Source of the DNA: Candidatus Tenebribacter burtonii
GTDB lineage: Bacteria > Cloacimonadota > Cloacimonadia > Cloacimonadales > TCS61
NCBI GenBank assembly: GCA_030765625.1
Contig: JAVCCF010000103.1
Location: 1 to 47,911 of the forward strand
DNA length: 47,911 nt
Reading direction: 5' to 3'
Each line of letters begins with the position of its first letter. Positions within the stretch are counted from its first letter, which is position 1. A program made the translations under genes and the position numbers. The notes under the pieces were generated by a model. The model saw only the letters and a program-made list of their open reading frames with translations. It did no database searches and had not been told where the DNA came from. Positions 2,754-3,940 of this stretch are shown here, in pieces.

Positions 2754-2784
2754 AAAAAAAGCTCGTGGGTTTTCCCACGAGCTT
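2754..2784 (-). terminator. Strong intrinsic terminator upstream of the ABC exporter (attenuator)
   Basis: On the minus strand an 11-bp perfect stem (AAGCTCGTGGG / CCCACGAGCTT, arms at 2774-2784 and 2759-2769) with an AAAA loop is followed by a run of seven T. It ends about 50 nt before the exporter ATG at 2703 and 157 nt after the leader peptide stop. No other gene ends here, so it can only act on transcripts heading into the exporter. That makes it an attenuator. Confidence 0.88.
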
Positions 2785-2940
2785 CCGTATCAATATTTCT
2801 AGATACAAAAATGGTGAGATAGCCCTTAATAAGGAACCAATCCCACCAATAAGTGGCTGATTTCTCAGCCTATATATTTTTCAGCCGTTTATAGGCCTAC
2901 GAACAAAGACGTATTTGGTTTTTACAGGATTGGTTTCCTG
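2785..2940 (-). promoter_or_regulatory. Structured leader RNA between leader peptide and attenuator
   Basis: Several alternative pairings are visible on the minus strand. CAGGA-AACCAA-TCCTG is a small hairpin right after the leader stop (2925-2940). GGAAACCAATCC (2938-2927) can instead pair with GGATTGGTTCC (2843-2833), with one bulge. GGCTGA-GAAA-TCAGCC forms a GNRA-loop hairpin (around 2858-2873). A GGTGGG segment (around 2843-2848) could pair with the CCCAC of the terminator 3' arm and act as antiterminator. These are by-eye pairings; the switch itself is inference. Confidence 0.55.
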
Positions 2941-2988
2941 TTAGGCAGAAGTACCTTGAGGTACTCTGTTTTTAAAATATCTGATCAT
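2941..2988 (-). CDS. Leader peptide MIRYFKNRVPQGTSA controlling the ABC exporter
   Basis: A 15-codon ORF starts at ATG 2988 behind a near-perfect ribosome binding site (GAGGAGG, about 5 nt upstream) and stops with TAA at 2941-2943. That is far better initiation than the exporter itself has. The peptide MIRYFKNRVPQGTSA contains Lys-Asn-Arg at positions 6-8, a match to the Arg/Lys-X-Arg/Lys motif at which macrolide-bound ribosomes are known to stall. A small hairpin (AGTACC-TCAA-GGTACT) lies inside its 3' codons. The layout of leader peptide, structured RNA, terminator and heterodimeric exporter is the same as in the Bacillus bmrB-bmrCD locus, where antibiotic-stalled translation of the leader prevents termination. 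There is no sequence family to test against, so the assignment rests on architecture. Confidence 0.75.
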   Translation of the reverse strand: MIRYFKNRVPQGTSA

Positions 2989-3000
2989 GAAAACCTCCTC

Positions 3001-3415: not shown

Positions 3416-3940
3416 CTAATCTTTATCAACAATAAATAACCCATCAGCAATGTCATTTCCTTTATCTTTCTTTGAAATTGGAATATGTATGTCCATTTGT
3501 GAATCTTTCTCCTCAAATTTGAACCTTAAATCATACCATTCGATCTCGTCTGCTGCAATTAATTTATATTCACTTTCCAGTAACCATTTATCATAAATAT
3601 AATTATAAGTTTCACTAAGAGTTTCCAATGATCCCATATGAGTAAACACAGCTACAAGCTGCTTAGGTATCTCATGATATTCCATTCCTTCAGGAATAAT
3701 ACTATCATCTTTAACAACTTTGCATACTAAATAATCAAACTTGGAATTTTCATCTAATTCTATTCCAGTATCATTTAAACAAATACCAAGAGAACAGTCT
3801 GGAACAGCGATTTTATCTAGTTCATTCATTCTATCAATAAAATCACTCCATAGTTGTGAAATGCGATTCTCCTCGATATTTGTGTGGATCTTCATCCCTA
3901 CCACTCTTAACATTTCTCTTTCTGTTATTATTACTTTCAT
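3416..3940 (-). CDS. GyrI-like / AraC effector-binding-domain protein
   Basis: The 174-residue protein matches the stand-alone GyrI-like (AraC_E_bind, SHS2-fold) family over its whole length. The diagnostic C-terminal half is clear: YHEIPKQLVAVFTHMGS, then LSETYNYIYDKWLLESEY, then WYDLRF and QMDIHIPIS. No DNA-binding domain is present. Members bind small amphipathic molecules in the groove between two repeats and act as drug sensors, sequestering proteins or, in some cases, hydrolases. It lies upstream of, and on the same strand as, a multidrug-type ABC exporter, which fits a role in drug sensing or binding. The start has an AAGG ribosome binding site 8-9 nt upstream. Confidence 0.8.
   Translation of the reverse strand: MKVIITEREMLRVVGMKIHTNIEENRISQLWSDFIDRMNELDKIAVPDCSLGICLNDTGIELDENSKFDYLVCKVVKDDSIIPEGMEYHEIPKQLVAVFTHMGSLETLSETYNYIYDKWLLESEYKLIAADEIEWYDLRFKFEEKDSQMDIHIPISKKDKGNDIADGLFIVDKD

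Follow-up and report, generated by a model that had tools for sequence, protein, structure and literature searches.

Can a short leader peptide and a terminator in front of an ABC exporter allow ribosomes to sense antibiotics in Candidatus Tenebribacter burtonii? This question was raised by an initial annotation of a 47,911-nucleotide stretch of DNA (contig JAVCCF010000103.1, positions 1 to 47,911 of the forward strand; hereafter the window), in which a leader was likened to the bmrB-bmrCD system of Bacillus. The locus belongs to a 98% complete genome bin of 2.81 Mb, in which it occupies the minus strand of contig C52. The phylum, taken to be uncultured and unrelated to that of Bacillus, is Candidatus Cloacimonadota, where the leader was found in one family, and the genus of the window is Ca. 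Tenebribacter. Below, G-numbers denote genomes of the comparison set (G000 being the window's own genome) and L-numbers denote fetched loci.

Elements of the leader

The described layout was found complete on the minus strand: a 15-codon ORF with a near-ideal Shine-Dalgarno, a structured leader, and a terminator with an 11-bp stem and seven T. The Shine-Dalgarno sequence GAGGAGG (2994 to 3000) precedes the leader ORF (2941 to 2988), which consists of MIRYFKNRVPQGTSA followed by TAA and carries K-N-R at codons 6 to 8 and R-V-P at codons 8 to 10. Folding places a hairpin, AGTACC/GGTACT, within the ORF (2950 to 2965), where it is also seen in relatives by eye, uncounted. A small hairpin, CAGG/CCTG, is predicted right behind the stop codon (2925 to 2940) and is unrecognisable in some relatives (e.g. 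G005 and G029). It contains segment A (ACCAATCC, 2927 to 2934). Segments B (TGGTGGGATTGGT, 2836 to 2848) and C (ATCTCACCA, 2812 to 2820) follow, and covariation and duplex energies, described below, indicate that B can pair with A in a putative ON state or with C in an OFF state. A run of five U immediately 3' of the B:C hairpin (2807 to 2811), noted in the alignments, may act as a first terminator. The intrinsic terminator itself (2754 to 2784), identified by sequence, fold and scan, has arms AAGCTCGTGGG and CCCACGAGCTT at 2784 to 2759, which form 11 bp around an AAAA loop, and seven T at 2760 to 2754. Its 5' arm includes segment D (GTGGGA, 2773 to 2778), a candidate ON-state partner of C that is apparent by eye in the window.

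The predicted fold of the leader reaches −82.7 kcal/mol, compared with −53.3 (sd 4.5) in 200 dinucleotide shuffles, none of which was as low (z = −6.5). Four terminator-like sites, the leader terminator among them, were found on both strands of the region, against 0.2 expected; a promoter scan of the same region gave 4 sites against 5.0 expected, no better than chance. A search of the window against Rfam returned no family at its gathering score. The best sub-threshold scores were for the trpB motif RF04312 (39.8 bits, gathering score 59) and Trp_leader RF00513 (27.9 bits, gathering score 41), both on the part from B to the terminator.

Just upstream of the leader and on the same strand, the window encodes a protein with a GyrI-like / Cass2 small-molecule-binding domain (3416 to 3940; Pfam E 1.6e-26), and by eye a similar gene lies upstream of the leader in G034 (L130, 688 to 1197, leader orientation).

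Distribution of the leader

Leader DNA gave matches at E <= 0.01 in 21 of 40 genomes of the family. Judged by sequence, the G022 match (L022) and the second G039 match (L024) look spurious, the true G022 leader lying on another contig, and the G035 leader is cut by a contig end. A covariance model, R2, was then searched against 124 genomes of the phylum and matched 26 of them at E <= 0.05, under strict filters by which weak matches may be lost. All 26 belong to one family, in which they represent 11 genera. In the window's own genome, a search with the model R1 turned up no second leader. The pattern of segments B and C retrieved 15 stretches from a GTDB-based genome collection, from which the window's own genome may be missing, and an exporter gene came next in all 15.

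The annotation had supposed that antibiotic-sensing attenuation is wider than known or arose independently. Restriction to one family suggests, without proving, an independent origin. Exporter homologues in other families of the order have other short ORFs upstream, with Shine-Dalgarno sequences and in some cases terminators (G076 L073, G073 L074, G093 L064 and G098 L063), and by eye no recognisable A, B or C was found at these four. Leader control of the exporter may thus be wider than this RNA family. Among open-licence PMC papers we found none on a leader peptide or on HflX in Cloacimonadota, which does not establish absence from print.

The leader peptide and its motifs

Peptides were tallied for 26 leaders, comprising 24 aligned leaders and those of G017 and G026. 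The first leader alignment was built without L010 (cut) and without the spurious L022 and L024, and in the 24-leader set the sequences of G031 and G020 stop at a T run that precedes their terminator. The 26 ORFs are 11 to 15 codons long and each has a Shine-Dalgarno sequence. GGAGG stands ahead of the ORF in 19 of 19 leaders, GGAGG itself having been the search pattern, and the leaders with R-L-R have GGAG. Codons for conserved residues vary synonymously (Pro CCT/CCG/CCA, Gly GGT/GGC, Arg AGA/CGG and CGA/CGT, Gln CAA/CAG). With its frame and ribosome binding site kept across relatives and its conserved codons exchanged for synonyms, the ORF looks translated, as was presumed at the outset. The hairpin predicted in the same stretch of the ORF means that part of the conservation of P-x-G may come from the RNA.

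Arg-x-Pro is found in 18 of the 26 peptides, as R-V-P in the window's genus and as R-A-P, R-K-P, R-T-P, R-R-P, R-I-P or R-L-P elsewhere. Pro occurs without a preceding Arg in G029 (WNP) and G030 (TLP). Four peptides (G020, G025, G026, G027) have R-L-R and no Pro, that of G034 has K-G-R and no Pro, and that of G005 has neither Pro nor a +x+ motif. Of the 20 peptides that contain Pro, 19 continue after it with Q, Y, D, E or A, and Pro-Gly is confined to G030.

K-N-R had been proposed as a match to the motif at which macrolide-bound ribosomes stall. It is present at codons 6 to 8; K-x-R at this position, however, is limited to eight leaders of the window's genus (K-N-R in six including the window, K-S-R in G032, K-G-R in G034) and is found in none of the 18 others. 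More broadly, Arg/Lys-X-Arg/Lys occurs in 12 of the 26 peptides, these eight and the four with R-L-R, and is absent from the other 14. K-N-R was therefore rejected as the conserved signal, and the candidate determinant moves to R-x-P or R-L-R.

Erythromycin is reported to pause ribosomes at +X(+) and at a more general XP(X) motif (PMC6238534), and one account of ErmDL describes an intact +X+ motif as dispensable with erythromycin (PMC8298421). In the RAPP family, as described in PMC10951233, peptidyl-RAP stalls ahead of Pro or Gly. The residues found behind Pro in these leaders (Q, D, E, Y or A) agree with XP(X) rather than with RAPP as that report defines it. Arg-Ala-Pro followed by Pro or Gly was found in none of the 26 peptides, the R-A-P of G004 being followed by Tyr, and membership of the RAPP arrest peptides was rejected, since the second Pro/Gly is missing.

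Alternative RNA helices

Two alternative folds had been anticipated for the leader, and covariation was analyzed on an alignment of 17 sequences (A2), with shuffles that do not correct for relatedness. In A:B, 96.3% of cells are paired and five of eight pairs have changed on both sides; 0 of 500 shuffles reached the covariation score, and slid controls paired in 8 to 57% of cells. In B:C, which uses the same B columns, the corresponding values are 97.4% of cells and four of nine pairs, with 1 of 500 shuffles reaching the score and slid controls at 36 to 54%. The sequence of B is divergent in several lineages (G005, G012, G017, G018, G020, G022 and G025/G027).

Segments were next exchanged between genomes in silico, using 15 representatives of the 21 leaders with segments; G010, G011 and G013 were left out because the B pattern failed. 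Cognate A:B duplexes averaged −15.4 kcal/mol compared with −12.5 for swapped segments, and cognate B:C duplexes −19.1 compared with −16.7, with 0 of 20000 permutations as good in either case; for the A:C control the fraction was 0.11. The leader of G017, found by R2 and absent from its training, repeats the pattern, with −17.6 kcal/mol for A:B and −24.0 for B:C. Its A pairs about equally well with the B segments of G018, G025 and G027 and clearly more weakly (−12.8 or weaker) with those of the 18 remaining leaders. Covariation and energies thus support A:B and B:C as conserved helices, mutually exclusive through their shared B.

Support for the pairing of C with the 5' arm of the terminator is weaker. 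Cognate C:D duplexes averaged −10.5 kcal/mol compared with −9.4 for swapped ones (14 leaders, G020 omitted), and a fraction of 0.0046 of permutations was as good. C:D is weak in genus g7, in G012 and in the window, where the best-scored duplex (−7.6) differs from, and is weaker than, the GTGGGA pairing drawn by eye. Outside the helices some sequence is strongly conserved, such as ATTTTTGTATC 3' of B:C. The distance from the stop codon to the start of the A:B helix is 2 to 7 nt in the 21 leaders.

Ribosome position and proposed switching

The effect of a translating ribosome was modelled with an assumed footprint, in which the masked RNA reaches from 13 nt upstream of the first P-site base to 15 nt downstream of it. 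Nascent transcripts ending after B were folded for 20 of the 24 leaders (without G010, G011, G013 and G031). For a ribosome whose P site is occupied by the last sense codon, 0.1 to 5.8 A:B pairs were expected in 17 leaders and 7.2 to 8.2 in three (G037, G015 and G008). With the ribosome further upstream, from codon 4 on, the number was mostly 6 to 14. Upstream positions that also lowered A:B were codon 10 in G008 (4.4 pairs) and G012 (6.8) and codon 4 in G030 (3.2), with further exceptions at codon 5 in G008, codon 4 in G012 and codon 6 in G030. With no ribosome on the leader the model likewise forms A:B, so that keeping the operon silent would require ribosomes to reach the stop codon.

Equilibrium folding with C present (12 leaders) gave no switching by ribosome position; B:C won in 11 of the 12 and G034 was mixed. 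Since B:C wins once C has been made, the decision must be kinetic, as it is in the E. coli trp attenuator. There, too, the first pairing partner is covered by a ribosome that has reached the stop codon, and the Cloacimonadota leader has the same geometry. It differs from the trp attenuator in its genes, in having no run of codons for a single amino acid and in an extra step, the pairing of C with D.

Taken together, the conserved ORF, the pair of covarying helices that exclude each other, the small and nearly constant distance between A and the stop codon, and the downstream genes described below lead us to read the leader, with a probability of about 0.8, as a trp-type attenuator through which ribosomes switch on transcription of an operon for resistance to ribosome-targeting antibiotics. 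We infer the stalling, its site, the class of drug and the read-through as follows. In the normal state, ribosomes would run through the leader to the stop codon and cover A; B would then pair with C, leaving arm D free, the terminator would form, and transcription would stop. In the induced state, a drug-bound ribosome would stall in the ORF at R-x-P (as XP(X)), K-x-R or R-L-R. A would remain free to pair with B, and the released C would pair with D. RNA polymerase could then read through into exporter half 1 and half 2 and, in many relatives, into a second hflX and sometimes an ABC-F gene.

Genes downstream of the leader

The candidate resistance genes, those for the exporter, the second HflX and ABC-F, were assigned by family models. 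Both exporter genes of the window are on the minus strand. Half 1 (844 to 2703) is MsbA/MDR-like by family models and PDB matches and has a degenerate Walker B motif, FDDSLSAVD, which is also present in half 1 of G037. Half 2 (2 to 715) is truncated by the contig end; its complete homologue in G037 has the Walker B motif LDEATSSVD. The best PDB sequence matches of the exporter are ABCB1-type transporters, followed by the bacterial multidrug exporters TM_0288, Sav1866 and YheH. YheH, matched by both halves, is BmrD. The assignment as a heterodimeric ABC exporter was thus upheld, with two halves of which one has a degenerate catalytic site (TM287/288, BmrCD type). In G017 a gene for an RsgA-type GTPase lies between leader and exporter (L140, 2309 to 3451, leader orientation).

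HflX models matched 35 of 39 genomes of the family, 16 of them twice. Eleven genomes have the second hflX on the same contig and strand as the exporter. It accompanies half 1 in G003, G018, G019, G020, G024, G025, G027, G029, G036 and G037, and half 2 in G004, which has the leader and half 1 on a separate contig. The leader was seen on the exporter/hflX contig in seven (G003, G018, G020, G025, G027, G029 and G037); in G024 and G036 the contig begins inside or close to half 1, and in G019 no leader of this type was found with the exporter and second hflX. In G034, hflX directly follows the leader. Overall, 14 of the 26 leader-bearing genomes searched have a second hflX (G033 was outside that search), and none was found in G030 and G013, which have leader and exporter.

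A tree of 43 of the 51 HflX matches, drawn from the window's family only, separates two groups at 100/100; three copies were not located (G020, G024 and G036) and five were not included. Of the 17 rows of the second-copy type, 12 either sit on the exporter's contig or come after the leader, and five are linked to neither (G000, G022, G028, G031 and G039). The five copies outside the tree were typed by BLAST, G017 as the second-copy type and G010, G012, G018 (contig C49) and G032 as the other type. Duplications of HflX are reported from other phyla as well (PMC6310831).

In the window's own genome the second hflX is on contig C164. This contig ends within a gene homologous (77% identity over 137 residues) to the P-loop gene located between exporter and hflX in G037, and a gene for a MacB/FtsX-like permease (L120, C164, 620 to 3046, hflX orientation) stands between the cut P-loop gene and hflX. 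The arrangement fits, without proving it, a single operon of window exporter and C164 hflX broken by the assembly. The P-loop protein of G037 (203 aa, GAAATGKT; L121, 4875 to 5486, plus strand) has homologues by eye in G004, G013, G031 and G036. It gave no Pfam match below 1e-5, the best being AAA_18 at 0.00038.

ABC-F proteins scored above the NCBIfam cut-off for ribosomal protection in G018, G022 and G024. Their genes lie ahead of hflX in G018 and in G022, whose contig is without the exporter, and behind it in G024. Genes for Pfam-confirmed GNAT acetyltransferases were found in G018, G027 and G037, and a likewise confirmed methyltransferase gene in G027. To judge by their sequences, the downstream genes fit a response to antibiotics. 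The antibiotic-sensing reading of the annotation accordingly gains in context from the second hflX and ABC-F genes, while its motif has to be reassigned.

Alternative explanations

The resemblance of R-x-P to the RAPP family (as described in PMC10951233) and the general use of HflX as a ribosome-splitting factor reported in PMC6310831 would both suit a sensor of translation stress, in which R-x-P-x-G, like R-A-P-P peptides, pauses the ribosome without any drug and reports slow translation generally instead of one particular antibiotic. We consider this unlikely: the one Pro-Gly, in G030, has no Arg before Pro, and the other 19 peptides with Pro continue differently; four leaders carry R-L-R, a motif of macrolide-sensing leaders; and the ABC-F and exporter genes point to drugs. 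The conserved sequence outside the helices would speak for a riboswitch binding a ligand or protein, with the ORF incidental. Against such a switch, which has very little probability in our view, the Shine-Dalgarno and frame are kept while peptide length varies, conserved residues are encoded by different codons, and A:B holds its narrow spacing to the stop codon.

The trp-like geometry and the sub-threshold Trp_leader score recall an attenuator that responds to starvation for Arg or Pro. Each peptide, however, has at most one Pro codon, few Arg codons and no run of a single residue, and no amino-acid biosynthesis gene was recognised in the downstream stretches read; this explanation was rejected as scarcely credible. 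An ordinary terminator of the upstream region beside a chance ORF would be in keeping with the terminator itself, which is ordinary, but was rejected as having practically no chance of being correct, because the ORF, A, B and C are conserved with covariation.

Comparison with known attenuators

The drug-responsive trp-type attenuator favoured here shares with bmrB-bmrCD of Bacillus subtilis, as described in PMC4191407, a leader ORF, a terminator, an ABC multidrug exporter pair and ribosome-mediated transcription attenuation. It differs from that description in that segment A lies after the stop codon and that hflX and ABC-F genes can follow the exporter. The layout drawn in the initial comparison therefore holds, whereas the Cloacimonadota geometry predicts that a ribosome reaching the stop codon promotes termination; the RNAs were compared through Rfam only, with no match.

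In Listeria, hflXr (lmo0762), a second HflX copy, is reported to be induced through a transcription attenuator with a 14-aa RLR leader, rli80, and to protect against erythromycin and lincomycin (PMC6310831). R-L-R recurs in four Cloacimonadota leaders, but in Cloacimonadota hflX comes behind both exporter halves (except in G034), most leaders have R-x-P, and A lies after the ORF, whereas the Listeria ORF region as reported encompasses the anti-anti-terminator. In msrDL-msrD and mefAL of Streptococcus, an erythromycin stall on the leader is described as relieving an intrinsic terminator ahead of an ABC-F gene (PMC10314930), as the predicted stall would do here. MsrDL (MYLIFM) is reported there to stall at its stop codon, where a ribosome on the Cloacimonadota leader would favour termination.

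We regard as evenly balanced a broader proposal, that of a new family of antibiotic-sensing attenuator RNAs, known to date from a single family of Cloacimonadota, in which the stalling code was exchanged in the course of evolution (Arg-x-Pro/XP(X) versus Arg-Leu-Arg/+X(+)) on a common switch that coordinates up to three defences, export, ABC-F ribosome protection and HflX ribosome splitting, against natural ribosome inhibitors of anoxic habitats. If the antibiotic-sensing reading is right, an uncultured phylum controls an exporter/HflX/ABC-F operon through drug-stalled ribosomes, an example of inducible defence against ribosome-targeting antibiotics far from the Firmicutes. The swap of Arg-x-Pro and Arg-Leu-Arg on one RNA scaffold would offer a natural comparison for the effect of the nascent chain on drug specificity, and the covarying segments would let compensatory mutations probe the switch directly in a laboratory strain.

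Additional small ORFs

Read by eye, similar second small ORFs with their own Shine-Dalgarno sequences follow the terminator in G017 (L140), G018 (L060) and G022 (L044), beginning MYKILKFIMRFCFSWSYRI..., MLRFLLVLLKLCFSWPFRI... and MLRLLKTLLKLCFSWPYRI..., respectively. They end near a CGGATA/TATCCG-like inverted repeat and are possibly second leaders. By eye, G022 has a third small ORF, MQNLAVKGIYLVNPYRGEY.
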